This document shows, in pieces, positions 36,717 through 63,215 of a stretch of DNA of 64,000 nucleotides (positions are counted from its first letter, which is position 1; every line of letters begins with the position of its first letter). The position numbers were made by a program, and so were the translations under genes. Where the stretch lies: assembly GCA_035934015.1 (NCBI GenBank), contig DASYYH010000023.1:1-64000 (forward strand). Direction: 5' to 3'. Origin of the DNA: Candidatus Acidiferrales bacterium. Its GTDB lineage: Bacteria; Acidobacteriota; Terriglobia; Acidiferrales; UBA7541. The notes under the pieces are model-generated. The model saw only the letters and a program-made list of their open reading frames with translations, was not told the origin of the DNA and did no database searches.

Positions 36717-37697
36717 ATGGAGAATCGATTGCGAGCAGTGATTACCGGAGGGGCAGGATTTCTGGGTTCGCATCTGTGCGACCAGATGATCGAGCGCGGA
36801 TGGGAGGTCGCATGCTTCGACAATCTCATTACCGGCGCCGAGGCAAATGTCCAGCACCTGATGAACAATCCGCGGTTTCGCTTCGTGCGCCAGGACGTAT
36901 CGCAATCCATCGACATTTCCGGGCCAATTGACGCCGTGCTGCACTTCGCCTCGCCCGCAAGCCCCGACGATTATTTGAAGTATCCGATTGAGACGATGAA
37001 AGTCGGTTCGCTGGGCACGCTGAATGCACTGGAAATGGCGCGCGCGAAAAGGTGCCGCTTCCTCGTGGCTTCGACTTCGGAGTGTTACGGCGATCCGGAA
37101 GTTAGCCCTCAGGTGGAAACCTACTGGGGCCACGTGAACTCGATTGGCCCCCGGAGCGTTTACGATGAGGCCAAGCGATTTTCCGAAGCGCTGACGATGG
37201 CGTATCACCGCACGCATGGTGTTGATACGCGCATCGTGCGAATTTTCAACACGTACGGCCCGCGCATGCGGCTGAATGACGGCCGCGCACTGCCGAATTT
37301 TCTTTACCAGGCGCTTTCCGGCCAGTCCATCACGGTTTATGGCGACGGCAAGCAGACGCGCAGCTTCTGCTACGTTTCGGATTTGATCGAAGGCATCTTG
37401 CGATTGCTCGACTCCCAGGAACACCTGCCGGTGAACATCGGAAATCCGCAGGAAATCACGATTCTGGAATTTGCCGAGCGCGTTCGCGAACTCACTGGCA
37501 ACCACGTTTCCATTGCTTTCCGCCCGCTGCCACAGGATGACCCGAAGCGCCGGTGCCCCGACATCACCAAGGCGCGGAAGCTCCTGCATTGGGAGCCAAA
37601 AGTAGGCCTGGAAGAGGGGTTGAAGCTGACGCTGGCGTACTTCGAAAAAAAAATGGCGGAAGAGCAGGCGAAATCAGGAAGCCAGCGAGGAAACTGA
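36717..37697 (+). CDS. UDP-glucuronate decarboxylase-like NAD-sugar epimerase (UXS)
   Basis: The 326-residue extended SDR has NAD-binding [12 protein letters not shown], the active-site YDEAK with upstream STSECYG, and the UXS-type [21 protein letters not shown] converts UDP-glucuronate to UDP-xylose. The enzyme making UDP-glucuronate is encoded convergently next door (ugd), which supports the call. dTDP-glucose 4,6-dehydratase-like activity is the main alternative. The 3' end overlaps ugd by 24 bases on the opposite strand. Confidence 0.87.
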
Positions 37698-39062
37698 TTT
37701 TTCCACGGGAAGCTCCGGCTTGCCGATGGCACGATATTCGAAGCCGAGTGCCTGCATCGTTTCCGACGAAAGCAAATTCCTCCCATCGAGCACCAAGGGG
37801 CGCGCCATACTGCCGTGGATGCGCTTCCAGTCCAGCGCGCGGAACTCCTCCCACTCAGTGACGATCAGCAAAGCATCCGCGCCCTGCGCTGCTTCATAGG
37901 CGTTCGCAACGCAATTCAACTCGGGAAAAACGCCGGCGATCTTTTCCATGGCCTGGGGGTCATATGCGGCGAGGAGCACTCCTTCCGGCAGGAGACGCTT
38001 GATCAATTCGAGGGAGGGCGCGAAGCGGATATCGTCGGTGTTGGCTTTAAAGGCTAAACCGAGCACGCCGATTTTCTTGCCCTTGAGCACCCAGAGCGAC
38101 TGGCGCAATTTTTCGATGAAAAGGTCGATGCGCCGGTGATTGATTTTTTCTGTTTCGCGAAGCAGAGCGAAATCGACACCATTGCGTTCGGCAAGGCGCA
38201 CGAAGGCTTGCAAATCCTTCGGGAGACAAAAGCCGCCGAATCCCAATCCGGGCCGGAAAAATTGCGGACCGATGCGCGGGTCGAGTCCAACGCCATGCAT
38301 GACTTCTTCGATATTCGCGCCAAGTTTTTCGGCAAGGTCGGCGACCATGTTGGCGTAGGAAACTTTGATGGCCAAGAATGAGTTCGAAGCGTGTTTGATG
38401 AGTTCGGCGCTGTTGATTGTTGTGACCACCCACTCCGGCGCGCGCACCGCTGGACAGGCGCCATCGTGGACGGGACAGCGGAATTTCTGTTCGAGGACCG
38501 GCTGGTAAATCTCACGCAGCTTTTTTTCCGCAATTTCATCGTCCACACCGACGACGATGCGGTCGGGATGCAGAAAATCACCGACAGCCGTGCCCTCCCG
38601 TAGAAACTCTGGATTCGACGCCACGCGGAAACGAACCGTCTTGCCGCGGCCATAGATTTCCAGCACTTTTTTCAATTGCTGCCCCGTTTGCGCGGGGACT
38701 GTGCTTTTTTCCACGATCAGCTTGTCGGTTTTCGCCTCGGACGCGATCATCTTCGCCACGTGATCGATGCCACTCAGATCGGCGTCGCCATTCGGCAGTG
38801 GAGGGGTTCCGACGCAGATGAAAACCACATCTCCTTCGGCGACGGCATTCGCAGGATCGGCGGAAAAAGAGAGCCGGCCTTCCCTGTGGTTCCGGTCCAC
38901 CACTGCATCCAGGCCCGGCTCAAAAATCGGAAGGCCACCTGCCTCGAGCGTCTTGATTTTGGAGGCATCGTTATCCGTGCAAAGGACGTGATGGCCAAGT
39001 TCGGCGAAGCACGCGCCGGTGACAAGCCCTACATATCCCGCGCCAATGACCGAAATCCGCAC
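37674..39062 (-). CDS. ugd: UDP-glucose 6-dehydrogenase
   Basis: The 462-residue protein has the Rossmann start [43 protein letters not shown], the catalytic Cys in [11 protein letters not shown], and [17 protein letters not shown] in the C-terminal domain follow. It oxidises UDP-glucose twice to UDP-glucuronate with NAD+. It supplies the UXS-like enzyme and uronic acids for the polysaccharide cluster. Confidence 0.95.
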
Positions 39063-39257: not shown

Positions 39258-40109
39258 ATGGATATCTTCGATGTCCTGTGGGTGGGGCTGGGAATCGCGG
39301 TAATCGTAGGATTCGTGTTTTATGTTCTTGCGCTCTATTGGGAGCGTTTGCTGAAACAGCACTCCCAGGCCATTCGCACTCTCTCCGAGCGCGTCGAAAT
39401 CCTCGAGGAAATGGAAGACCCACGTTTCCGGCGCAAGGTGGGAGACTCCGCTCCATCGCCACTCGAGCGGGTTTACATCTTCAGCTTCCGGCTCGCTGAG
39501 CGATTCTGGCCCGAAACGGTGGGTGCCAGTCCGGAGCAACTCCGATATATTCGCGAGAACGGAAATTTTCTCAGCTCAGTGAAGATTCAACGCTGGCGCA
39601 GCCACATTGCCGTGACTCTCACCGAGCTTTTGCCCCAGAGCCAGTCGGCGCGATGGCAGACGCGCGTTGTGGATATTTATCCCACAAAAAACTCCGCCAG
39701 TTCGACCGTGCTCTGGGAACTGCATCTTGAGCCCGCGCTGAACTCGCACTGGTCTGAATTGCCACCGACGCTGGAATTGCGCTACGAAAACGAGTCGCTC
39801 GTGCTTCGTGCACGGCATTGCGAGCCGGGCGTTCGCGTCGAAGGGAACGTGCTGACGCCCACGGCGGAAAAGATGATCTTCCGGGTTTCGCTCGATCCCG
39901 ATGCGCTTGGCGAATATCGCGTTTCCGAGGACGCTGGCGAACGCCCCGCAGGCGAGGATGATGGTGCGGATTCGCGGCTGGCATTTTATCGTTTTCAGGA
40001 CGAGCGTATGGGCGTCGATTGGCAGCTCTGCGTGCGCGATCTGGACCGCAAGGCGGTCTGGGAGCGTTGGAACATCGTCGAGCCGTGGCAGACACGCCGC
40101 GTCTCCTAG
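39258..40109 (+). CDS. Membrane-anchored protein of unknown function
   Basis: The 283-residue protein has one N-terminal helix (about 5-27, DVLWVGLGIAVIVGFVFYVL). A short coiled-coil-like stretch (AIRTLSERVEILEEME) leads into a beta-rich soluble part with ELHLEPALNSHWSELPPTLELR and a Trp-rich C-terminus (MGVDWQLCVRDLDRKAVW). No family is recognised. It is divergent from ugd; a TACAAT box lies at 39193-39198. Confidence 0.7.
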   Translation: MDIFDVLWVGLGIAVIVGFVFYVLALYWERLLKQHSQAIRTLSERVEILEEMEDPRFRRKVGDSAPSPLERVYIFSFRLAERFWPETVGASPEQLRYIRENGNFLSSVKIQRWRSHIAVTLTELLPQSQSARWQTRVVDIYPTKNSASSTVLWELHLEPALNSHWSELPPTLELRYENESLVLRARHCEPGVRVEGNVLTPTAEKMIFRVSLDPDALGEYRVSEDAGERPAGEDDGADSRLAFYRFQDERMGVDWQLCVRDLDRKAVWERWNIVEPWQTRRVS

Positions 40110-40152: not shown

Positions 40153-41862
40153 CTAGGACTTTCTGAGCAAAAAACTGCCGATAACGAGTGCGTCCGTGCC
40201 GGAGCAGAAATAACTTCGCACCGCGTGGCGCGGAGAAAGAACCAGCGGTTCGCTGAAGAGATTGAACGAGGTATTCAGCAGGACCGGGGCCGGCGCTTCA
40301 GCGCCGAATCCTTTGAGCAGTCCCCAAAACAAAGGATTCGCTTCGCGCGTGACGACGTGCAGGCGGACCAGGTTTCCAGGCAGGGCGCAATCTCCAAACA
40401 ATCCGCGATGTTCCGAACGCAAGCGGCCCATCGCTGCCATAAATCGCGCCGCTCCGGAGAATTCGAAATATTTTTCAGCGTCTTCCTCCGGTACGGACAG
40501 CGCGAATGGGCGAAACGGTTCGCGGTGCTTGACGTAATCGTTCAAGTTTTCTTTCGCGTAGGGTGCCCAGGGCGAAGCGAGCAGGCTGCGGTTTCCGAGC
40601 GCGCGCGGGCCAAATTCAGCGGCGCCTTGAAACCACGCCACAATCTTTCCGGCCAGGAGGAGCCGCACCGTTTCCGCGATACGCTGCGCATTGGAGGAAA
40701 GCCAGCCGTAATTCGCCTTGCAATTGTCCAGCACCTGTTTGATTTCCTCATTTGAATACGAAGGGCCGAGATAGAGATGAGGCAACGTATCCGGCCTGTT
40801 TTTGGCCTCGCCTTCGATTTCGCTGCGCGCGAGCCAGGCTGCGCCAAGTGCTGTTCCTTCGTTTCCCGCCGCGGGCTGGACGAAAACATTTTCATATCCA
40901 GCGTTTCCTTCGAGTGCGGAAACCAGAAGCGGATTCAAGAATAATCCGCCCGCGAGGCACAGATTGCCGATGGCGTAGCGCTTGCGAAGCGATTCCGCCA
41001 GATCCGTTGCAACGACTTCGCAGGCCTTTTGCAAGCTGCTTGCCAGAGCCGCCCGAGCGCGTTCGTCGGTTTGTGCCTGATTTTCCGGTGCGACCCCGAC
41101 TTGCTTGTAAAATTTGGGAGAAAAGGCCAGACGGCCTGGGAATCCCCGCTGAAAATAGGAAGAATCCAGCTTTGGAAAAGCGCTGGAGGAACTTCGCAGC
41201 ATGCGTAGAAAAACATCCACAAAAGCTGGTTCAGCGGTCAGGCTGAGCCACTGCGTCTTGTGCTCATGCTCGTGCGGGCGATACCCGAGCAACTCGGTCA
41301 CTTGCGAATATATCCAGCCAAGAGAGTGCGGAAACGGAATCGTACGCTCGATGCGGACTCGCCCAGCTTCGCCAATCGCAATGCTGCCGCAGGCACCGTC
41401 GCCCTGTTCGTCGAGCGTGAGGATCAGCGCGCGATCGAATGGCGAAGCGAAAAACGCGCTTGCAGCATGGCAAAAATGATGATCGAAAGCCAAAACACGA
41501 ACTCGCGCTTCGCCAGAAAGCAAGGAAAGAATGCGCAGATTGTTCAGTTCGCTCGAAAGCTCGCCGAAAATCTTGCCTTGGTAATAGGCGCTCGCGACCG
41601 GAGCCACTGGCAGGTAGCGCGCTCGAAACGCCGCGCGCCGCGCCCAGGAAGTCCATGGGCGGCTGGCAACGCCGACCGCACCGATTTCGCGCCAAGCGAC
41701 GCCAGTGCGTTCGAGGCAAAACTGAATGGCGGCTCGCGGAATTCCTGCCGCTGTTCGCGCGCGTAGCAGTTTGGACTCTTCGATGGCTGCGGAAAAGCCG
41801 CCGTCGCCAAGTAATGCGGCGGATGAGTCGTGAGTCAGCGCGGAGAGCCCAAGAAAATACAT
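40153..41862 (-). CDS. NodU/CmcH-family carbamoyltransferase (1)
   Basis: The 569-residue protein has an N-terminal TsaD-like domain: LGLSALTHDSSAALL, FDHHFCHAASAFFASPFD, LTLDEQGDGA. The C-terminal domain has FGPRALGNRSLLASPW and KHREPFRPFALSV. These enzymes transfer carbamoyl from carbamoyl phosphate, through carbamoyl-AMP, to a hydroxyl of a sugar or antibiotic. Here the target is probably a sugar of the polysaccharide or its precursor. ATG 41862 is chosen over TTG 41895, which overlaps the upstream oxidoreductase gene. It is the last gene of the minus-strand cluster. Confidence 0.9.
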   Translation of the reverse strand: MYFLGLSALTHDSSAALLGDGGFSAAIEESKLLRARTAAGIPRAAIQFCLERTGVAWREIGAVGVASRPWTSWARRAAFRARYLPVAPVASAYYQGKIFGELSSELNNLRILSLLSGEARVRVLAFDHHFCHAASAFFASPFDRALILTLDEQGDGACGSIAIGEAGRVRIERTIPFPHSLGWIYSQVTELLGYRPHEHEHKTQWLSLTAEPAFVDVFLRMLRSSSSAFPKLDSSYFQRGFPGRLAFSPKFYKQVGVAPENQAQTDERARAALASSLQKACEVVATDLAESLRKRYAIGNLCLAGGLFLNPLLVSALEGNAGYENVFVQPAAGNEGTALGAAWLARSEIEGEAKNRPDTLPHLYLGPSYSNEEIKQVLDNCKANYGWLSSNAQRIAETVRLLLAGKIVAWFQGAAEFGPRALGNRSLLASPWAPYAKENLNDYVKHREPFRPFALSVPEEDAEKYFEFSGAARFMAAMGRLRSEHRGLFGDCALPGNLVRLHVVTREANPLFWGLLKGFGAEAPAPVLLNTSFNLFSEPLVLSPRHAVRSYFCSGTDALVIGSFLLRKS

Positions 41863-41872
41863 GCGCGAGGGC

Positions 41873-43084
41873 CTAAAAGTCCGCGCGATTCGCAAATCGC
41901 CCGCTCGTCAGCAGGCCGCGAAGACCCATGAGAATCAACCGAGGCTGGCTGATGCAAACGCGCCAGAGGACCTTGAGCGCTTCGTCGCGCGAATAGCGGC
42001 TGAGCGAACGTTTGGCCGGCGCATTCAGCGAATCGACCAGACGGCTGTAGTCATCCTGCGTAAAGCGATGCATCGCACGCCGAATCAGGAGATGCAGATC
42101 AAGTTCGCGGCGCAATTGCCGGAGCTCCGCGCTCGAACCGCCGCCCAGGATGGCTTCCGCGGCGCCTGCCGCTCCGCGCAGCCCCGTGACAATTCCCCCC
42201 ACCGTACTTACTTTCACCTGTGCCGCCGCATCTCCGACAAGAAAAACGCTTCCGCCGCCCAGGTTTTTTCGCATGGGCACCCAGTTGCGGTAGACCGGGA
42301 TTCGTGCGCCTTGAAAACTGACGGCATCGAGTTTTCGCTTCAGCAGAAACGCCTCAAGATGCCTGCGTGCTTCGGAGCCAACCTCGCCGATCAATCCGAG
42401 CGCGCCGCGCTCGGCAGATTCCGGTATCAACCAGTAAAAATAGGGCGTATCGTCGGGGACGAACCAGACGCGCACAGTGTCCGGCGTCATATCTTTCGGC
42501 AAAGGCACAATCGCCTGAACCAGCGGAACCGTCTCCAGTCTCGGCCAGCCCGCGGACTGCGCCACGCGGCTCGCCGCTCCATCTCCGCCGACGACGACAC
42601 GCGCCGAAAGGTTCTCCGTGGTTTCTTCTCCTGGCTGCTGCATCTCAAGCGTGATGCCATTTGCATCCGGCGTAAGGCCGCGAAATTTTCGCGCGAAATG
42701 GATCTTCGCGCCCGCGCGTTCCGCCCATTCGGCAAGCGAACGAATCAATTTTGCGCGCTCGATAATCAGATCAGGCGCATCCAGATGGATCGTCGCCGCG
42801 CGGCCGTCGGTGAAAAGCTCGAATTTGCGAATCTCGTTGACGATGCTGGCCGATCCCGCCTCTTGCAGCAGATCCTTCATGCGACTGGTGACGATCAGCG
42901 TGCGCGCTTCGGGGTCGAGCGTCTCGTTTTGCTCGAACACGCGCACGGACACGCCTTCACGCGCCAGCAAAAATGCCGTGAAAAATCCCGCCGCCGACCC
43001 GCCGACGACAGCGACATCGGGATCTGCGGAAATATTTTCGCGGTGATTCTTCTGCGAGTCTTTGGGCGCTCGTGCAGTCATCAT
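41873..43084 (-). CDS. FAD-dependent oxidoreductase (geranylgeranyl-reductase/halogenase-like)
   Basis: The 403-residue flavoprotein has the dinucleotide motif VAVVGGSAAGFFTAFLLA (GxGxxG-like), the mid motif VVVGGDGAASRVA and the late FAD motif GSVFLVGDAAAQVKVSTVGG. The pattern resembles lipid (geranylgeranyl) reductases and related monooxygenases; the substrate is unknown. It lies 10 bases upstream of carbamoyltransferase 1. It might reduce the polyprenyl carrier or oxidise a sugar or lipid, but nothing in the sequence decides this. Confidence 0.82.
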   Translation of the reverse strand: MMTARAPKDSQKNHRENISADPDVAVVGGSAAGFFTAFLLAREGVSVRVFEQNETLDPEARTLIVTSRMKDLLQEAGSASIVNEIRKFELFTDGRAATIHLDAPDLIIERAKLIRSLAEWAERAGAKIHFARKFRGLTPDANGITLEMQQPGEETTENLSARVVVGGDGAASRVAQSAGWPRLETVPLVQAIVPLPKDMTPDTVRVWFVPDDTPYFYWLIPESAERGALGLIGEVGSEARRHLEAFLLKRKLDAVSFQGARIPVYRNWVPMRKNLGGGSVFLVGDAAAQVKVSTVGGIVTGLRGAAGAAEAILGGGSSAELRQLRRELDLHLLIRRAMHRFTQDDYSRLVDSLNAPAKRSLSRYSRDEALKVLWRVCISQPRLILMGLRGLLTSGRFANRADF

Positions 43085-43236
43085 CTTTCGCTGGGGTTTC
43101 CGTCTTTCGATCGTATCCTACTCGTGTTGGGGACCTGCCGCCAAACTACCAAGGACACAGAACGGAGCCGCCAGTATAGCGCAGCATAGCCCGCGCAGAA
43201 AACAACACAGGAGAGACAGACTAGAGTCGGGAACGG

Positions 43237-44298
43237 CTAGAGAGCAACGGGCAGGCCCCCAGGCCTTTCCTGTCGTTCGTAGGGAGAGCGCTCGAGCGCA
43301 GCTATGGCAATCCCGCCAAGCAGGATGACCGCCACGCATAGTCCATAAGCAACAACCGGAGGGAAATATGAGATCAGAAACGCCAAAACGCCGAAGATTC
43401 CGGCCAGCGCATACATCACAAGCACAGCGCGCTTGTGGCCGAATCCGAGGTTGGAAATTCGGTGCGCCGTATGATCTTTGCCGGGCGAAGTGAATGGCAA
43501 TAGGCCGCGACGCAAGCGCGAGATGGTGATCAGCGTCGTATCAAAGATGGGTACGCCGAGGATCAAGACCGGCAGGAGCCATTGAGTGGGGAAATGCTCA
43601 CCGGCGGGCCGCACCTTCAAGCCGAGCGCAGCGGTGAGGAATCCCAGCATCATCGCGCCGCCATCGCCCATAAAAATTTTTGCCGGGGCAAAATTCCAGC
43701 GCAAAAAGCCCAGCGCAGCGCCGAGGGTCGCCGCCGCGAGCGTGCACACGAGGATTTGCCCGTTGATCCACGCCGCAATCATGAAGAACGTCGCCGCAAT
43801 CGCGGCAATCCCGGCACACAGGCCGTCCATGTGATCAAGAATGCTGAACGCCGCGGTGATTCCCACGACCCAAAATAACGTGAGCGCCATATCCAGCAGG
43901 CGTCCTACTAAACCGGGGATGAATATAGAAAAAATCTGAGCGTGAATTCCCGTGGCAAGCAGAATGCATCCGGCCAGCGGCATGCTGACGAAAAGCTTGA
44001 TTTGATGATGCAGCTTGCCCGAATCGTCAAGAATGCCCGTCCCGGCCAGGAGAGTTGCGCCGGCGAGGATGGCAAGAATTTCTCCATGCCAGTTGTTTTG
44101 CATGGTGCCAACGACGGCAAGCAGAAATCCGGCGTAGATAGCGGCGCTCCCCAGCAGGGGCACGGGCTTGATATGGATTTTCCGAGTATCCGGCTTGTCG
44201 ACCATGCCCACGCGCAGGGCAAAAGCTCGCACCGGCATCGTGAGGATCAACGAGCCGAAGAGCGCAATCGCAAAAGCGAACCAAATGTGCCAAATCAT
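43237..44298 (-). CDS. wecA: WecA/TagO-type polyprenyl-phosphate sugar-1-phosphate transferase
   Basis: The 353-residue protein has about ten helices. PDTRKIHIKPVPLLG, the DD pair in GILDDSGK, SILDHMDGLCAG, FMGDGGAMMLG and HRISNLGFGHKRAVL are the MraY/WecA-family cytoplasmic motifs. It moves HexNAc-1-phosphate from a UDP-sugar to undecaprenyl phosphate, the first step of O-antigen or capsule synthesis. Which sugar is used cannot be told. Only 4 bases separate it from the upstream transferase gene. Confidence 0.9.
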   Translation of the reverse strand: MIWHIWFAFAIALFGSLILTMPVRAFALRVGMVDKPDTRKIHIKPVPLLGSAAIYAGFLLAVVGTMQNNWHGEILAILAGATLLAGTGILDDSGKLHHQIKLFVSMPLAGCILLATGIHAQIFSIFIPGLVGRLLDMALTLFWVVGITAAFSILDHMDGLCAGIAAIAATFFMIAAWINGQILVCTLAAATLGAALGFLRWNFAPAKIFMGDGGAMMLGFLTAALGLKVRPAGEHFPTQWLLPVLILGVPIFDTTLITISRLRRGLLPFTSPGKDHTAHRISNLGFGHKRAVLVMYALAGIFGVLAFLISYFPPVVAYGLCVAVILLGGIAIAALERSPYERQERPGGLPVAL

Positions 44299-44302
44299 TC
44301 CG

Positions 44303-45532
44303 TTATTCCGAAAGACTCATCGCACCACGCACCTCTGCGTGAATTGCTTCTTCTACGACGCCGGTGAATTTTTCCAGTTCGTTTTCTCGCGCATACTTCT
44401 CCGCTGCCACGCGCGCTCGCCGACCCATATCCGCCAGCCGCTGCGGATCGCTTTTCAAGGAATGAATCGCGGCAACCACCTGTGCGGGATCGTCGGGATC
44501 GGCCACAACGCCGCAACCGGAGGTGCGTACGATGCGCGCCGCATCCGTTTCCTCCGGAGCGACGACCAAAACAGGCCGGCCTGCCGCTAGAATCGAATAG
44601 AGTTTGCTGGGAACCACAACGCCGTCCAGTCCGCGCCGAATCGTGACGACATGGACGTCGCCCGCGGCCATGACGCAAGGGATTTCCGTCACCGGCCGGA
44701 ATGGCAGGAATTTGACGATCTCGCATGAACGACTGGATTCTTCCAGGCGCGCGCGATTCGCTCCATCGCCGACGAAAACCAGGCGGATGCCATTTCGCGG
44801 CAGCATGCGCGCAGCTTCGATCAGCGTGTTCCACGCGCCGTAGAAGCCCAAATTTCCTGCGTGCAGCACCACAAACTCAGCCGAGCCACGTATCTCACGG
44901 ATGGCTGGGTCGTCCGGCTGCGCGGGCACAAAGGAAGTCGAAGTGCCATCGCGAACAACAACAACGCGCTGCGGGTCGACACCCTTCGCCACGATACGGT
45001 CGCGCATGTCGTCCCCGAGCACAATGACGTGCTCTGCCGAGCGCAGGGCCCAACGATGCATGCGTTCCCACATGCCGACCCACGTTCGCCGGCGAACGAT
45101 CTCGCCGCCGACTGCCATATCCGGATAGAGGTCGCGGATGTTGTAGACAAAGGGAATGTCCTTCAGCCGGGCGATTGCCGCGCCGACAATCCCGGCAAAC
45201 GGCGGGTCGGTCATTGCCAAAACCAAATCCGCCTTGATGGCCAGCGCGCGCGGAAAAGCCAGCAAAACGTAAGAGAGATAATTGGCCACGCGCCGCCGCA
45301 TGCTCTGACGCGGAAAGGCCGACGAGCCCACCCGCTCGACGACGACATTCTTGCCAATTGCGTCGCGCCTCAGGAGCGCATACGGGTAGTATTCCGTTGG
45401 ATCATAGGACGGCCGGCCAGCGAGGACGGTCACCTCGTGGTGCGCGGACAATGCCTCGACGACAGTGGCGGCCATTTTGGCTGTCGCCGAAGTGTCAGGC
45501 GGAAAATATTCGTTCAGCAATAATATGTGCAC
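44303..45532 (-). CDS. GT4-type glycosyltransferase (WbuB-like)
   Basis: The 409-residue GT-B enzyme begins MHILLLNEYFPPDTSATAK. HAGNLGFYGAWNTLIEAA opens the C-terminal half, and VPSKLYSILAAGRPVLV carries the donor-binding region. WbuB-like enzymes add an N-acetyl-hexosamine (for example L-FucNAc) to a lipid-linked acceptor. The GTG start at 45532 is supported by the immediate MHILLLNEYFPP motif. Likely coupled to the WecA gene. Confidence 0.88.
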   Translation of the reverse strand: MHILLLNEYFPPDTSATAKMAATVVEALSAHHEVTVLAGRPSYDPTEYYPYALLRRDAIGKNVVVERVGSSAFPRQSMRRRVANYLSYVLLAFPRALAIKADLVLAMTDPPFAGIVGAAIARLKDIPFVYNIRDLYPDMAVGGEIVRRRTWVGMWERMHRWALRSAEHVIVLGDDMRDRIVAKGVDPQRVVVVRDGTSTSFVPAQPDDPAIREIRGSAEFVVLHAGNLGFYGAWNTLIEAARMLPRNGIRLVFVGDGANRARLEESSRSCEIVKFLPFRPVTEIPCVMAAGDVHVVTIRRGLDGVVVPSKLYSILAAGRPVLVVAPEETDAARIVRTSGCGVVADPDDPAQVVAAIHSLKSDPQRLADMGRRARVAAEKYARENELEKFTGVVEEAIHAEVRGAMSLSE

Positions 45533-45606
45533 AGCGAGTTCCCAAGTGACTCACGGCGCGTGCTGCTTGCGTGACCCTGGAGAGCGAGAGAGCTCTCCAG
45601 TTTTTC

Positions 45607-47400
45607 TCACGACCTATTATTCAACACAGCTGCGGGCGTTTCGTCGCTCGAATTTTCGAGCGGTTTCTTCTCGAGCAAGAGATTTCCCAACACCAATACA
45701 TCCATTCTTGTGCGTTCAAAACAGGCTAGGGCTTCTGAGGGCTGGCAAACAATCGGTTCGTTATCGTTGAAAGATGTATTTAGCAGGACTGGGACCCCTG
45801 TAATGTTACCAAATGTCCGGATCAGACGCCAGTACAAGGGATGCGCATTCCGGCTCACAGTTTGCAATCGCGCCGTCCCGTCCACGTGTGTCGGCGCAGG
45901 GATCACTGCGCGTTTGGTCTGCCGCACCGGATATGCGAAGGTCATGAACGGCGAAGGATGCGTGCGCTCGAAATATTCGCCCGTGGATTCCTCGAGGATC
46001 GAAGGCGCAAATGGCCGGAAAGCTTCGCGGTGCTTGATCCGGCGATTCAGAGTCTCTTTCATCTGCGCGCGGCGCGGATCGGCCAGAATGCTGCGATTGC
46101 CCAGCGCGCGCGGGCCCCACTCTGCACGGCCCTGAAACCACCCGACCACTTTCCCCTGTGCAATGTGATGCGCCGTCGCTTGCACCAATGATTCTTCATC
46201 GAGTTCGCTGATTTCCGTGTCCCCGGAACCCGAATGCCAGTTGCAAACGGCCCGCCGGATTTGCTCTGTCTCAAATCCTGGACCCCAAAATGCATGTTCC
46301 ATCGCGAAGCCGCGCGGCTTTCCGAGAATCTGACAATTCACCGCAAAGGCCGCGCCTATGGAAAGCCCGCCATCGCCCGCGGCCGGCTGCACGTAAATCT
46401 GCTCAAAGGGCGTCCGTTCCAGAATTTTCCCGTTGGCGACGCAATTGAATGCGACTCCGCCCGCAAGGCAAAGCGCTTTGGTCTTGGTTTGCTTGTGCAG
46501 CGCGTTGAGGTTCGCCAGCAGAACGTCTTCGAGGTGCGTTTGCATGCTGGCCGCGAAATCCTTATGGTGTTGTTCGAGCGGCTGCTCCGGCCTCCTCGCG
46601 AGACCGAGACGTTCCTCAAGCAACGGCGAGAAAAGCCTTCCGATGACCGGCGTCTCGTCTGCTTTCTTCCAGGTCATTTCCGGGCCGGATTTGTGATGCG
46701 TGAAATAACGGAGGTTGAGGCGGAAACCGATCGGTTCTTCCGTATGAACGATCTGCCGGAGTTCATCGAGATACGCCGGCGCGCCGTACGCGGCGAGGCC
46801 CATCACTTTGTACTCGTCGCCGAATTTCAAAAATCCCAGGTACTGCGTCATCGCCGTATAAAACATGCCCAGCGAATGCGGAAACGCAATGGAGCCAGCA
46901 ATGCGAATTTGCGACCCTTCACCGACGCCCCACATCGTGCTGGCGAAATCGCCCAGACCGTCGGCGGAAAGCACGGCGGCGTGGTCAAACGGCGAGACGA
47001 AAAATGTGCTGGCGAGATGCGCTTGGTGATGCTCGATGCGATGGAATTGCGCGCGAATGGTCTGCGGATCGATTTCAAACGCGGCGGCAAGTTCGTCCTT
47101 GATTCCGTGGAAGCGCCGGAACACTTTCGCGCGTTCGAGCGCAAATTGCGGCATGCGCATGGCGAAGCGCAGCTTTGTCCCCATGCGCGCCCAGGGATTG
47201 CGGGGGATGGCGATGTGATCGACGTCGAAAAATTTCGCGCCGGCAGCGTCAAGGCAATATTGAATGGCCTTGACCGGCAGCCCGGCGGCGTACTTCACGC
47301 GATTCAGCCGTTCTTCTTCCACCGCGGCAATCAACTGGCCATCCACGACGATGGCCGCTGACGCGTTGGCGTGGTACGCGTTGATTCCGAGAATGATCAT
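45607..47400 (-). CDS. NodU/CmcH-family carbamoyltransferase (2)
   Basis: The 597-residue protein has MIILGINAYHANASAAIV, the metal-site HHQAHLASTFFVSPFD, and LSADGLGDFAS. EWGPRALGNRSILADPR and KHREAFRPFAPSIL lie in the C-terminal domain. Same reaction type as the gene at 40153, but the two differ along their length, so they probably act on different positions or sugars. ATG 47400 is preferred over GTG 47412. It follows the asparagine synthase-like gene by 42 bases. Confidence 0.91.
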   Translation of the reverse strand: MIILGINAYHANASAAIVVDGQLIAAVEEERLNRVKYAAGLPVKAIQYCLDAAGAKFFDVDHIAIPRNPWARMGTKLRFAMRMPQFALERAKVFRRFHGIKDELAAAFEIDPQTIRAQFHRIEHHQAHLASTFFVSPFDHAAVLSADGLGDFASTMWGVGEGSQIRIAGSIAFPHSLGMFYTAMTQYLGFLKFGDEYKVMGLAAYGAPAYLDELRQIVHTEEPIGFRLNLRYFTHHKSGPEMTWKKADETPVIGRLFSPLLEERLGLARRPEQPLEQHHKDFAASMQTHLEDVLLANLNALHKQTKTKALCLAGGVAFNCVANGKILERTPFEQIYVQPAAGDGGLSIGAAFAVNCQILGKPRGFAMEHAFWGPGFETEQIRRAVCNWHSGSGDTEISELDEESLVQATAHHIAQGKVVGWFQGRAEWGPRALGNRSILADPRRAQMKETLNRRIKHREAFRPFAPSILEESTGEYFERTHPSPFMTFAYPVRQTKRAVIPAPTHVDGTARLQTVSRNAHPLYWRLIRTFGNITGVPVLLNTSFNDNEPIVCQPSEALACFERTRMDVLVLGNLLLEKKPLENSSDETPAAVLNNRS

Positions 47401-47442: not shown

Positions 47443-49413
47443 TTAGAATACCGCAGTTGCCGATTTGGTTTCTCGTCGCGCACTCGGACCGCCATCAGCG
47501 CTCAAGTTCCTGCGCACCCATTCATTCAGCACGAACAAGCTCCATGGCCGTGACCAGCTTGTCCTGCCAGCCAAAAAATCCTGCCAGACATTTCTGACGG
47601 CGGCAGCATTTACGACCGCCGCGAGTTTCGCATCGCAATCCGAAAGTCCTGTCGCGACACGCTGCCGCAATTCGCCTCGCAGCCATCCTTCCCATGGCAA
47701 AGTAAATGTCTTCTTCGGCTGCTCGATGATTTCACGAGGAAGCAAATCACCCAGCGCTTCCGCGAGCAGCACCTTGCGCATTCCCTTCATTTGTTTCGTG
47801 GCGCCCGGAAGCGCAAGCACGAGCTCGACGAGCCGCGTATCCAGAAATGGCACGCGAACTTCCAGCGAATGGCGCATGCTCATGGTATCGGTATCGCGCA
47901 GAAGCATGTTGACAAGATACGAGCGAGTTTCCAGCCAGGAAACGGCGTTGAATGCGTCCAGTTTCCCCGCTTCTCGCGCCGCATTCGATAGCCAATCCAT
48001 CCAGGGTGCTGCGTCCGCGCCATCGTCGTTTTTCGGCAGGAGCTCCGCGAGAGCGTCTGACGAAAAAAGAGTTCGCGTGAAAAAATACGGATGCGGGAAT
48101 CCCTGCGGACTCGTGAATGCCGCCGTCATCTTGCGGATCACGTCCGGACGGCGGCTCCGTGCGGCCCATGCGTTCAGCGGAGCAGCTCCGCCGCGCCGAA
48201 TGGCAGCCGGAATCCACCGCGAAGACGCGATCAGTCGCGCAATCTGTGCCGTCGAACGAAATGTCGAATACCCGCCGAAAAGTTCATCGCTGCCAAGGCC
48301 CGAAAGCGCGACTTTCAATCCGGCTTGGCGCGCAGCCCAGGAAACAAAGAACGTATTCACACCGTCGGCGCTCGGCTGGTCGAAGGCCATCACTGCTTCG
48401 TCGAGCCGTGACTTCATTTCCTCGCCGCTCAAGATGAACTCCGCGTGCTCCGTTCCCAGTTGTTCTGCCGAGTGCCGCGCGATCTGACCTTCGTTGAAAT
48501 CCTGCTCAGGAAAAACGACAGTGAACGTCTTGATGCCCGGATGCTGTCGGCTCGCAACTGCGGCGATCGCCGTCGAATCCATGCCGCTGCTCAAGAAAAC
48601 GCCCACAGGAACATCGGCAATCAGATGGCGGCGAACAGCATCTTCGAAACAGGTCCTTACGCATGCGGCTGGCGATTCAGCATGCGCTCTCTCTTTCGAT
48701 TCCTGCGGAATATCCGCGAGGCTCCAATAACAATTTGGCCGGAAAGAATTCGCCGGCGAATCGCAGGAGACGTAGCCTCGGTAGCCCGGCGGCAGCGAGT
48801 CGACGCCTTCGAGCAACGTCATCGGCTCGCCGATAGATCCGAAAAGCAGATAGCTCGAAACTGCGGCGGGCGACAATTGCCGTGGAACGCAATCGCCCGC
48901 AAGCAGCGCGCGAACTTCAGAAGCAAAATAGAAATTGCCGCCGGCACTCGCGTAATAGAGGGGCTTAATGCCCAGGCGATCGCGCGCGAGGAAAATGCGC
49001 CTCGGCCGTCCCGCCTTTCCGTCCAGCATTTCAAGAATTGCGAACGCAAACATCCCGCGCAGTTCGCGCACGCAGTCCTCTCCCCAGGTTTCATAAGCGT
49101 GGATGATGACTTCCGTGTCGGATTGCGTCCGGAAAATGTGTCCCTTGGATTCGAGCGACGCGCGCAAGTCGCGATAGTTGTATATCTCGCCATTGAAAAC
49201 GACAGCGAGCGTTTCTGCCTCATTCCAGATCGGCTGATTGCCGCCGGGAAGATCGATAATACTGAGGCGCCGCATGCCGATGGCCGCGCGCGGAGCAACA
49301 AATACCCCTTCGCCATCCGGCCCGCGATGCGTCATCGCGTCCATCATGCGCTGAAGCCGCGGCGCTGAGTTTTTTTGGTTGTCCGAGCCGATGATCCCGC
49401 AGATTCCGCACAT
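47443..49413 (-). CDS. asnB: AsnB-type glutamine-dependent amidotransferase
   Basis: The 656-residue protein starts MCGICGIIG, so Cys2 is free to act as the glutaminase nucleophile. MTHRGPDGEG, VFNGEIYNY and the synthetase PP-loop FLSSGMDSTAIAA follow, then LSGLGSDELFGGY. The family makes asparagine from aspartate, or in surface-glycan loci amidates sugar acids. Its place among transferases and carbamoyltransferases, with ugd upstream, makes uronic-acid amidation plausible but unproven. Confidence 0.9.
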   Translation of the reverse strand: MCGICGIIGSDNQKNSAPRLQRMMDAMTHRGPDGEGVFVAPRAAIGMRRLSIIDLPGGNQPIWNEAETLAVVFNGEIYNYRDLRASLESKGHIFRTQSDTEVIIHAYETWGEDCVRELRGMFAFAILEMLDGKAGRPRRIFLARDRLGIKPLYYASAGGNFYFASEVRALLAGDCVPRQLSPAAVSSYLLFGSIGEPMTLLEGVDSLPPGYRGYVSCDSPANSFRPNCYWSLADIPQESKERAHAESPAACVRTCFEDAVRRHLIADVPVGVFLSSGMDSTAIAAVASRQHPGIKTFTVVFPEQDFNEGQIARHSAEQLGTEHAEFILSGEEMKSRLDEAVMAFDQPSADGVNTFFVSWAARQAGLKVALSGLGSDELFGGYSTFRSTAQIARLIASSRWIPAAIRRGGAAPLNAWAARSRRPDVIRKMTAAFTSPQGFPHPYFFTRTLFSSDALAELLPKNDDGADAAPWMDWLSNAAREAGKLDAFNAVSWLETRSYLVNMLLRDTDTMSMRHSLEVRVPFLDTRLVELVLALPGATKQMKGMRKVLLAEALGDLLPREIIEQPKKTFTLPWEGWLRGELRQRVATGLSDCDAKLAAVVNAAAVRNVWQDFLAGRTSWSRPWSLFVLNEWVRRNLSADGGPSARRETKSATAVF

Positions 49414-60406: not shown

Positions 60407-61078
60407 TTAAGCGATGATAAAGCAGACTCCTTGGCGAGACTGCCTGATCCTCCATTTTCTCATTACAGCGAATTCATTAATTGCCAGCGTGCAACCCTCC
60501 CAGGTGTGGTAATCGTCGACAATAAGCATCCCTCCCGAGGCGACATGAGGGGCGAGGTTGTCCAGAATGCATTTCGTCGATTCATACCAGTCCGCATCCA
60601 GCCGCAGCAGAGCAATTGGTTCCAAGAGATTTACCTTTGGCAGTGTCTCGTTGAACCAACCTTTGATGATCTGATAATTCCTGGCTGCAGACATCGACAT
60701 CACCGACGTCACCTCTTCTTCAGAGGCGGCGCAGTTGTTGAAGTAAATGGGGCTGGTTTTGTTTGATTGCCATGCTAGCGCAGCCGCACCGTCAATTTCC
60801 CTCGCGGGCGGAAGGCCTTGGAAACTATCGAAAAGAAGATAGCGGCGGTCGGCCCCCAGCACGTCCGCCATCCCAGCCATCATACCGCCGCGCCAGGTAC
60901 CGCACTCGACTACGCTTCCGGAAATCTCTCCTATACGAGAAGCGAGACACAAGTTGTCGACATAAATATCAGCTGGAACCATCGTGAAATTCTTGTATTT
61001 TTGATAGATCTTGCGAAACCTCCGGTCATCGATGGTGAATCTAACGTAATTCGGAAGCCTCCTGGTGAGCCTTAACAC
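60407..61078 (-). CDS. TylF/MycF-like O-methyltransferase
   Basis: The 223-residue protein has VVECGTWRGGMMAGMADVL (SAM motif I), LLFDSFQGLP, LLRLDADWYESTKCILDNL and GGMLIVDDYHTW. The Asp-rich metal site is that of macrocin-type sugar O-methyltransferases. It probably methylates a sugar hydroxyl of the polysaccharide. The GTG start overlaps the wzt stop by 7 bases. Confidence 0.85.
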   Translation of the reverse strand: MLRLTRRLPNYVRFTIDDRRFRKIYQKYKNFTMVPADIYVDNLCLASRIGEISGSVVECGTWRGGMMAGMADVLGADRRYLLFDSFQGLPPAREIDGAAALAWQSNKTSPIYFNNCAASEEEVTSVMSMSAARNYQIIKGWFNETLPKVNLLEPIALLRLDADWYESTKCILDNLAPHVASGGMLIVDDYHTWEGCTLAINEFAVMRKWRIRQSRQGVCFIIA

Positions 61079-62343
61079 GTTTTACGATCCGACCCGCATG
61101 GTTGAAGGATGGACATACTTTCTTCGAAACGGCACAGATACGTCCCAGGAAACGCAATCGGCCCCTTGTTATCATTGACGCCTGCGACGACCTCGAGCGT
61201 TGCGGCGCGTTCTATATGGTCCGTCTCTTCGATACGGTCTCTGCCAAGCCACAGACCCATCAGGTAGGTACCCGAGCGTAGCAGAAGCTGTTGAATGCGA
61301 AAGCAAACGCGAGCGATTTCCCCGGCGTTCAGCTGGAGAAATTCGCCTTTCTGACAGGTATTCACATCGATGAGGCGATAACCACCCGCATCATAGACAA
61401 TCACAGCGACAATTGATGCGGGTAAGTCTTGGCGAGCCTCGATTGTCAATTCGATCTCGAGGTCACAGCCCGTGCAAGTGGAATCGAGAAGTGAACCGTC
61501 CGCGCGCATGGGCCGAAGCGCGATGGAAGTGAAGATTGCCTTGCCCGTTCCCGTTCGGTGTGTTTTCCGAAGATCAGAATCACAACCGACCGCTTCCATC
61601 GCCTGTGTATGGTACGCAGCGGCGACCTTCGACGTCTCGCCCGCGATGGCAATGCGGCCCTTATCAAGTAGAATGCACCGTGAACACAGCATATTCACGG
61701 CCCCCATATTGTGCGATACAAACAAAATTGTCCTACCGCCGCGTGAAACCTCTTCCATTTTGCCGAGGCATTTTTTTTGAAACGTTATATCGCCGACGGC
61801 GAGGACTTCGTCGACGAGGAGAATTTCGGGCTCGAGATGCGCAGCGACGGCGAAGGCGAGGCGCATCTGCATGCCGCTGCTGTAATGCTTGAGAGGCGTG
61901 TCGATGAAGCGCTCGACTTCGGCGAAGGCGACGATTTCTTCGAATTTGCGCTCGATTTCCACTTTGCTCATACCGAGGATGGCGCCGCTCAGGAAAACAT
62001 TTTCGCGGCCGGTGAGCTCGGGATGAAAGCCGGTGCCGACTTCGAGCAGGCTGCCGATGCGGCCGTGGAGCGTGGCGCGGCCGGCAGTGGGACGCGTGAT
62101 GCGCGCGAGGAGTTTCAGGAGCGTGGATTTTCCAGCGCCGTTGCGGCCGATGAGGCCGACGACTTCGCCGTGCCGAACTTCGAAGGAAACGTCGCGGACG
62201 GCCCAGATGTGGTCCTGCGGCGTGCGCTTGCCGTTAAGGCGAAATGCGTTGGTGAGCACGTCGCGCAGGGCGAGGTAACGCTGGCGCTCGCCGACGCGGT
62301 AGCGTTTGCCGATCGATTCGACGCGGATGGCGGCGTTACTCAT
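61072..62343 (-). CDS. wzt: ABC transporter ATPase for polysaccharide export (Wzt)
   Basis: The 423-residue protein has Walker A GLIGRNGAGKSTLLK, signature HYSSGMQMRLAFAV, Walker B EILLVDEVLAVGD and FVSHNMGAV. About 170 further C-terminal residues (from about 255) match the Wzt carbohydrate-binding domain, which recognises the capped end of the O-chain in E. coli O8/O9a. ATG 62343 is preferred; the earlier GTG 62364 overlaps wzm. Confidence 0.93.
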   Translation of the reverse strand: MSNAAIRVESIGKRYRVGERQRYLALRDVLTNAFRLNGKRTPQDHIWAVRDVSFEVRHGEVVGLIGRNGAGKSTLLKLLARITRPTAGRATLHGRIGSLLEVGTGFHPELTGRENVFLSGAILGMSKVEIERKFEEIVAFAEVERFIDTPLKHYSSGMQMRLAFAVAAHLEPEILLVDEVLAVGDITFQKKCLGKMEEVSRGGRTILFVSHNMGAVNMLCSRCILLDKGRIAIAGETSKVAAAYHTQAMEAVGCDSDLRKTHRTGTGKAIFTSIALRPMRADGSLLDSTCTGCDLEIELTIEARQDLPASIVAVIVYDAGGYRLIDVNTCQKGEFLQLNAGEIARVCFRIQQLLLRSGTYLMGLWLGRDRIEETDHIERAATLEVVAGVNDNKGPIAFPGTYLCRFEESMSILQPCGSDRKTC

Positions 62344-62360
62344 CGTTTGCGCGCGATGCC

Positions 62361-63215
62361 TCACACAACATCAGCGATAGTGCCTTCCATTTTCTGAAAA
62401 TAGAAAAGCCCGGTTGCCAGGACAGCGAGCATGATGACGACCGAGATGATCAGCAAACGGCCCGGAGGGTCGCCGTGGCCGGTCAGCGACCAGCGAAAGC
62501 CTTCGAGTACTCCCGCCATGGGATTCAATCCGTACAGCCAGCGCCATTTCGCCGGAACGATGGAGCTCGCATACGCGACGGGCGAGGCGAAAAGCCAAAG
62601 CTGAATGAGAAACGGGACGACATAGCGCACGTCGCGATACATGGCGTTCATTGCTGAAAGCCAGAGGCCCGCGCCGACAGCCATTAGGACGACAAGAAAA
62701 AGAAAAACGGGAAACCACAGCAACGGCAGGCCGGGACGAATGCGGTAGTAGGCGAGCAACGGAACTAGGAGCAAACAGCCGATGGCGAAATCGAGCAGGC
62801 CGGAAAGCACGACGGAAAGCGGCAACGCCAGGCGCGGAAAGTAAACCTTCGTGATCATGGACTGGTTGAGGACCATGGCGTTCGTGGCGTTCGAGAGACT
62901 GTTGGCGAAATACATCCAAGGGAGGAGCGCGGCGTAATAAAAAACGAGAATCGGAAGGCCTTCGGTGGGCATGTGGGCGAGTTTGCCGAAGAACAGCGCG
63001 AAGACGATCATGGCGAGCACGGGCTGCAAAATCGCCCAGGCTGCGCCGATGGCCGTCTGTTTGTAGCGGATTTTGATTTCGCGCCAGATGAAAAAGTAGA
63101 CCAATTCGCGGAACTGCCAGAGTTCACGGAAATCCACTTCCCACCAGCCGTGCGGCGGAGCGATGTGCAGAACAGGAGGTTCGGCGGCGATGACGTTGGT
63201 ATGCGCGGCGGTCAT
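62361..63215 (-). CDS. wzm: ABC transporter permease for polysaccharide export (Wzm)
   Basis: The 284-residue ABC-2 permease has six helices and the intracellular coupling start FRELVYFFIWREIKIRYKQT. LLPWMYFANSLSNATNAMV and YGLNPMAGVLEGFRWSL also fit the family. It forms the channel for lipid-linked polysaccharide with Wzt. The upstream gene overlaps its start by 4 bases (ATGA, 63212-63215). Confidence 0.93.
   Translation of the reverse strand: MTAAHTNVIAAEPPVLHIAPPHGWWEVDFRELWQFRELVYFFIWREIKIRYKQTAIGAAWAILQPVLAMIVFALFFGKLAHMPTEGLPILVFYYAALLPWMYFANSLSNATNAMVLNQSMITKVYFPRLALPLSVVLSGLLDFAIGCLLLVPLLAYYRIRPGLPLLWFPVFLFLVVLMAVGAGLWLSAMNAMYRDVRYVVPFLIQLWLFASPVAYASSIVPAKWRWLYGLNPMAGVLEGFRWSLTGHGDPPGRLLIISVVIMLAVLATGLFYFQKMEGTIADVV

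Follow-up and report, generated by a model that had tools for sequence, protein, structure and literature searches.

A carbamoyltransferase-like protein with a replaced iron ligand, encoded near a canonical carbamoyltransferase in an acidobacterial surface-polysaccharide locus

The stretch of DNA analysed here (the window) is 64,000 nucleotides long and lies at the very start of a 337-kb contig (DASYYH010000023.1) in the 3.37-Mb genome of a Candidatus Acidiferrales bacterium (GCA_035934015.1). Two genes for class III carbamoyltransferase-like proteins, termed CTA and CTB, are located on its minus strand and were the only two matches when the whole genome was searched with the PF02543 profile. 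Carbam_trans_N and Carbam_trans_C score over the curated cut-offs in both proteins, and given its Pfam score CTB would be labelled a carbamoyltransferase by automatic annotation. The open reading frame (ORF) of CTA is open from GTG 47412 and that of CTB from TTG 41895; the likely starts are ATG 47400 and ATG 41862, respectively, and the resulting MYFLGL start of CTB is common to three relatives. The two genes, and the codons on which the comparison with the carbamoyltransferase GdmN turns, are as follows:

40153..41862, minus strand: CTB, an Asn-type member of the class III carbamoyltransferase-like proteins (PF02543, 147 bits; PF16861, 159 bits)
41410..41481, minus strand: CTB His139, His143 and Asp162, the kept iron-ligand positions, equivalent to GdmN H133, H137 and D156 (alignment)
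41248..41253, minus strand: CTB Gln215-Trp216, replacing the Met-Gly of the family (alignment)
40861..40863, minus strand: CTB Asn345 codon, at the place of the GdmN iron ligand Asp333 (alignments; PAAGNEG in the translation)
45607..47400, minus strand: CTA, a canonical class III carbamoyltransferase (PF02543, 211 bits; PF16861, 243 bits)
46372..46374, minus strand: CTA Asp347 codon, the kept fourth iron ligand (alignment)

The original prediction, made from the letters of the window, had described two carbamoyltransferases within one polysaccharide locus that differ from each other throughout. Both points were borne out: the two minus-strand ORFs are intact, carry both Pfam domains and are surrounded by glycan genes, and the proteins are approximately 36% identical.

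In GdmN, iron is bound by H133, H137, D156 and D333, the general base is H27, and main-chain amides at positions 157 and 158 form the oxyanion hole (PMC9633730). The two domains have KxR...SxN and HxxH...D as their catalytic motifs (PMC9654439). CTA and CTB share the domain order of GdmN, TobZ and NovN (PDB 7vyj, 3ven and 9s2t; PF02543 followed by PF16861), with a Kae1-like domain preceding a YrdC-like domain. When aligned to GdmN, CTA was found to possess all four iron-ligand positions (H128, H132, D151 and D347), the YrdC tetrad and the C-terminal motif THVDGTAR. The CTA residue aligned with GdmN H27 is A15; a histidine immediately precedes it (YHANAS), as it does in other CTA-type rows.

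CTB resembles these enzymes in three of the four iron ligands (H139, H143 and D162), in a histidine at the general-base column (H22) and in an intact tetrad in the YrdC domain (K456, R458, S543 and N545). It departs from them at the fourth ligand, where N345 stands at GdmN D333, and at several further sites: E163 occurs right after the third ligand, where the family has Gly; QW stands for MG; V325 lies at GdmN N313, the second Asn of the GGxxxNxxxN motif; and ALPGNLVR is found at the place of THVDGTAR, with the THxDxTxR histidine gone. The metal-site and C-terminal motifs, which had been predicted to be intact in both proteins, are therefore intact in CTA and altered in CTB.

Other departures from GdmN are common to the two proteins. 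Tyr82 of GdmN is conserved in neither (Pro in CTA, Ala in CTB), and both are without the C-terminal dimerization domain, CTB stopping 2 residues beyond its match to GdmN residue 568 and CTA extending 18 residues beyond its match to residue 570. Enzymes without this domain usually act on polar acceptors (PMC9633730). Matches to the NodU model (NF041651) covered almost the whole of CTA (185 bits) and the second half of CTB (96 bits), both far under the equivalog cut-off of 1000 bits, and neither protein was classed as NodU.

Conservation was assessed in a residue table of 37 CTB-type, 43 CTA-type and 7 plasmid-borne proteins, in which rows were typed as CTA or CTB by the better-matching window protein before a tree was built. 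Rows left out were the CTB fragments of genome G023 (where the gene is broken up across three frames), the 875-amino-acid (aa) ORF of G016 (L070), L113 (a duplicate of L042) and, from the tree, also the 946-aa ORF of G433; two rows from contig ends, that of G003 and the 442-aa one of G053, were retained. The column of GdmN D333 holds Asn in 36/37 CTB-type rows (Ile in the remaining one, from G089), whereas all 43 CTA-type and all 7 plasmid-borne rows have Asp (Asn in 0/43 and 0/7). At column 209, Trp takes the place of the family Gly in 37/37 CTB-type rows and in 0/50 of the others, and H495 is absent from 36/36 CTB-type rows that reach the column and present in 50/50 other rows. Column 157 is Glu in 26 of the 37 CTB-type rows. 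R418, K443, R445, S533 and N535 were conserved in every CTB-type row reaching those columns. Type cannot be read cleanly from the general-base column: it holds His in 20, Arg in 14, Gly in 2 and Lys in 1 of the 37 CTB-type rows, and is also variable among CTA-type rows (His in 18/43, with many others having His one position earlier).

In a tree built by a quick method from 80 rows, GdmN among them (unrooted, no bootstraps), the CTB-type rows made up one side of a branch with a Shimodaira-Hasegawa-like approximate likelihood ratio (SH-aLRT) value of 100, although the clean split is partly built in because rows had been typed by best match beforehand. Ratios of nonsynonymous to synonymous substitution rates (dN/dS) between the window and three congeners were approximately 0.10 for CTB, 0.06-0.07 for CTA and 0.07-0.15 for the gene next upstream of CTB (termed FAD), all of them rough because dS is near saturation. 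The CTB type looks to be under purifying selection, and a pseudogene was ruled out for CTB by its open frame together with the (rough) dN/dS of about 0.1. The substitutions described above are traits of a group and not of a single genome. Five further candidates for the CTB type (G369, G115, G189, G433 and G162) were ruled out, as all had Asp in a motif check.

The genes that accompany CTA and CTB in the window include the following:

37674..39062, minus strand: UDP-glucose 6-dehydrogenase-like gene, placed downstream of CTB in the window as well as in several relatives (profile matches, synteny)
41873..43084, minus strand: FAD, a flavin adenine dinucleotide-dependent protein of the geranylgeranyl-reductase superfamily, next upstream of CTB (PF01494, 92 bits)
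43237..44298, minus strand: WecA/MraY-like polyprenyl-phosphate sugar-phosphate transferase (PF00953, 103 bits; TIGR02380, 119 bits, under cut-off)
44303..45532, minus strand: glycosyltransferase (GT4), WcaI-like (Pfam; NF007640, 162 bits, under cut-off)
47443..49413, minus strand: AsnB-like glutamine amidotransferase (PF00733, 286 bits; TIGR01536, over cut-off)
61072..63215, minus strand: Wzt/Wzm-type ABC exporter genes, part of this cluster (PF00005 and PF14524; PF01061)

CTA and CTB are surrounded by the AsnB-like, WecA-like and UDP-glucose dehydrogenase-like genes, by GT4 and further glycosyltransferases, and by a Wzt/Wzm-type exporter. The locus is a surface-polysaccharide locus whose product would be exported. 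Spacing within it is tight, with 10 bases from the FAD stop to the CTB start and 4 bases between GT4 and WecA (44298-44303). The FAD protein scored 120 bits against TIGR02032, under the cut-off of 159. Its predicted structure was mediocre (predicted local distance difference test (pLDDT) 60, predicted template modelling score (pTM) 0.66) and its fold matches were weak (TM ~0.45), the best being the geranylgeranyl-reductase-like 3oz2 amid a mixture with monooxygenases. The FAD gene adjoins the WecA-like gene in the window and in relatives, and the protein might reduce the polyprenyl carrier.

The closest named relatives retrieved with CTB were metagenome-assembled genomes of Acidobacteria and 'Candidatus Acidiferrales'. 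Among 89 genomes of the family, many of them incomplete, FAD was detected in 75 (E <= 1e-60), CTA orthologues in 65 (E <= 1e-150) and the CTB type in 31; from these counts the core of the locus looks to run from CTA to FAD, with CTB as an accessory. The order CTA-GT4-(epimerase)-WecA-FAD-CTB recurs in eleven loci besides the window (G001, G002, G004, G012, G013, G016, G019 with longer spacing, G104, G089, G090 and G092); L033, L034 and L035 are apparently contigs of G001, G002 and G089 and add no independent loci. An epimerase gene lies between GT4 and WecA in 8 of the 11 (e.g., L033:4505-5515) and was not seen there in G012, G090, G092 or the window; the best epimerase match in the window's genome is 36% identical and located on contig C6. 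The CTB match begins no more than 150 bases from the FAD match in 15 of the 31 CTB-bearing family genomes, and in a sixteenth (G102) CTB lies approximately 3 kb from a FAD fragment. In G006 and G015 the block runs as far as FAD but has no CTB, and in G061 and G064, which likewise have no CTB, about 4 kb separate CTA from FAD. Obligate pairing of CTA with CTB was rejected (Fisher p 0.13), as was the idea that FAD serves CTB as a dedicated partner (FAD in 75/89 vs CTB in 31/89; Fisher p 0.13).

Across 396 genomes of the phylum, residue-confirmed CTB-type proteins were found in at least six besides the window's own (G367, G441, G112, G361, G034 and G391), the counts outside the family being lower bounds as up to three candidates per genome were scored; G031, from the search for relatives, is another carrier. 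Outside Acidobacteriota, presence of the CTB type was checked on the seven plasmid-borne proteins.

CTB-type genes also occur in other settings. In genus g5, the CTB-type gene directly follows a gene for an mtaB-like radical-SAM methylthiotransferase in 12 of the 13 genomes carrying one (e.g., L103:8856-11976 and eleven similar loci), these 12 belonging to the 31 CTB-bearing family genomes and the mtaB identity resting on Pfam in two of the 12 loci and on similarity in all 12. A glycan link may still exist at these loci, since an epimerase-like match is near in 7 of the 12. In the thirteenth genome (G062), the CTB-type gene comes after glycosyltransferase (GT2) and epimerase genes, with an mtaB-like gene approximately 8 kb away. 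The neighbours in G052 and G044 are metH-like, LuxR-type regulator and Cu-oxidase_4 genes. As a hint to transfer RNA (tRNA) modification, the mtaB link is weak, because the surroundings in G052 and G044 look like general housekeeping and all 12 loci belong to one genus. At the best-scoring mtaB-like locus of the window's own genome (contig C6), no carbamoyltransferase match was found. Elsewhere, the CTB-type gene follows two aminoacyl-tRNA synthetase genes (G034), adjoins an epimerase (G441) or epimerase-like matches (G112 and G361), or adjoins a CTA-type gene (G367); in G014 (L052:7519-12897), a GDSL-lipase-like gene just under the Pfam cut-off sits between the CTB-type and CTA-type genes.

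CTA is very probably an ordinary class III O-carbamoyltransferase that carbamoylates a sugar of the locus glycan. By analogy with its family, its YrdC-like domain would convert carbamoyl phosphate and ATP into carbamoyl adenylate (carbamoyl-AMP), and the iron site of its Kae1-like domain would use this to carbamoylate a hydroxyl on a sugar of the glycan or of a glycan precursor. Alongside an ordinary CTA, CTB may be a rewired accessory paralogue that is active, with a rebuilt transfer site and an acceptor of its own; this is the interpretation favoured here, and we give it an even chance. Because the adenylation site is intact and the selection estimate is as given above, CTB appears to do something, and because the transfer site is changed, what it does need not be ordinary O-carbamoylation. 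To judge from its residues, CTB probably still uses carbamoyl-AMP. In the proposed mechanism, its Kae1-like site would have been rewired by the change of the Asp ligand to Asn, of MG to QW and of the second Asn of GGxxxNxxxN to Val, usually in the CTB type also of Gly to Glu after the third ligand; CTB would then make or bind carbamoyl-AMP and pass the carbamoyl group via the changed metal site to another acceptor.

Several observations weigh against an active, rebuilt enzyme. In the CTB-type proteins of G112 and G441, D156 is also Asn, and in the 12 g5 loci after the mtaB-like gene, the general-base column is Arg and R449 is changed to His; these changes would suit a CTB-type group of which some members no longer act as transferases. 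The predicted structure of CTB had a mean pLDDT of 36 (with the window and three loci as input). Neither a CTA orthologue (26/31 genomes with CTB vs 39/58 without) nor FAD (29/31 vs 46/58) was significantly associated with CTB (Fisher p 0.13 in each case).

An inactive or non-transferring CTB, which would bind nucleotide or carbamoyl phosphate and regulate or scaffold, for example as a partner of CTA, is a possible alternative that we consider less probable. It would accord with the missing iron ligand and THxDxTxR histidine, with the 14 of 37 CTB-type rows that have Arg in the general-base column, and with the presence of CTA and CTB together in the recurrent block. A precedent exists in TsaB, the TsaD paralogue of N6-threonylcarbamoyladenosine (t6A) synthesis, which works as a partner without a metal site and whose C-lobe is described as giving no support for nucleotide and metal binding (PMC9654439). 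CTB, however, retains far more of the site than TsaB does and a CTA-CTB complex would be hypothetical; the absence of a significant tie between CTB and CTA argues against partnership, and the strictly conserved adenylation tetrad would be odd for a mere scaffold. If instead both proteins were ordinary O-carbamoyltransferases, a single glycan would be modified by them at two positions or on two of its sugars, as originally predicted. Asn is able to act as a metal ligand in other metalloenzymes, the window CTB keeps three of four ligands and H22 in the general-base column, and the recurrent glycan block shared by CTA and CTB makes a role of both in one glycan reasonable. The argument from intact motifs nevertheless fails for CTB, because its group has a replaced iron ligand and has lost family-invariant residues; the exchange of Asp for Asn and the other group-wide changes are unlike an ordinary member. 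Since that argument fails and CTB-type genes also occur outside recognisable glycan loci, a second carbamoylation by CTB is one hypothesis among several; carbamoylation at two positions is possible, and two ordinary enzymes as its source are unlikely.

That CTB belongs to a pathway unrelated to the locus glycan and was inserted after the FAD gene by chance appears very improbable. The accessory character of CTB would agree with it, given the loci that have the FAD-ended block (G006 and G015) or CTA and FAD (G061 and G064) without CTB, as would the position after an mtaB-like gene in 12/12 compared g5 loci and after aminoacyl-tRNA synthetase genes in G034; the recurrent closeness to FAD (within 150 bases in 15/31 genomes, ~3 kb in G102, and 10 bases from stop to start in the window) speaks against chance. 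An active enzyme with a rebuilt site is favoured over a pseudoenzyme or partner, the latter over an ordinary second O-carbamoyltransferase, and an unrelated pathway comes last. A broader proposal, that CTB represents a conserved enzyme type of its own, built on the carbamoyltransferase scaffold, so far seen only in Acidobacteriota and with a reaction or acceptor other than sugar O-carbamoylation, is advanced tentatively and is rather doubtful. Under that proposal, the Kae1 metal site would have been rebuilt (Asn for Asp, Glu by the third ligand, QW for MG), the intact YrdC domain would supply carbamoyl-AMP for that other reaction or acceptor, and the protein would have been recruited to glycan loci and, separately, to the neighbourhood of an mtaB-like gene.

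Carbamoylated surface glycans are already known; the new element is the Asn-type group. The change of the iron site across the group amounts to a natural experiment on the role of the aspartate ligand in a site common to Kae1, HypF and TobZ relatives; if CTB is active, the metal ligands held to be necessary in the family need to be redrawn. Counts of 'carbamoyltransferase' genes, moreover, need not equal the number of carbamoyl groups on a glycan.

Surface-glycan carbamoylation had been called little described outside nodulation factors and a few O-antigens. For exopolysaccharides this agrees with the literature searched: in listings and abstract openings of open-licence PubMed Central (PMC) papers, nothing on point was found for carbamoylated exopolysaccharide, two carbamoyltransferases or an Acidobacteria polysaccharide carbamoyltransferase, nor for a pseudo-carbamoyltransferase or an altered metal ligand. 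The statement does not extend to Pseudomonas core lipopolysaccharide (LPS), where carbamoylation is documented: heptose is taken to be the sugar modified by WapO (PA5005), a putative carbamoyltransferase, and nuclear magnetic resonance showed an O-carbamoyl carbon at 158.9 ppm in P. syringae pv. tomato (PMC8005017). The reaction of WapO, in another glycan and host, is of the kind proposed for CTA, namely carbamoylation of a surface-glycan sugar.

Multiple carbamoyltransferases per locus are not special, because three lie on one contig of G019 within approximately 41 kb and two on a Leisingera plasmid (L175:1-4779), where, as annotated, an SGNH hydrolase gene is flanked on both sides by carbamoyltransferase genes, an arrangement like that around the GDSL-lipase-like gene of G014. 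A third carbamoyltransferase type (L044:11481-13151 and L045:6751-8427), matching CTA at 39-42% and with Asp at the fourth ligand, lies on the contig of CTA in G007 and G019 and was also found in G008, G011, G012, G016 and G020.

The locus does not correspond to an XrtA/PEP-CTERM exopolysaccharide system, as the AsnB-like protein scored 467 bits against TIGR03108 (cut-off 817) and no exosortase was found in the locus. The single TIGR02602 match of the genome, over cut-off and of the exosortase family, is at C6:44276-44983 (L114); because it stands on another contig, a PEP-CTERM-type system separate from the CTA/CTB locus may be present. Lastly, a plus-strand ORF of 283 aa without a Pfam match (39258-40109) sits between two minus-strand genes next to CTB, and ORFs 40-46% similar to it were located near CTB in G002, G004, G089 and G092.

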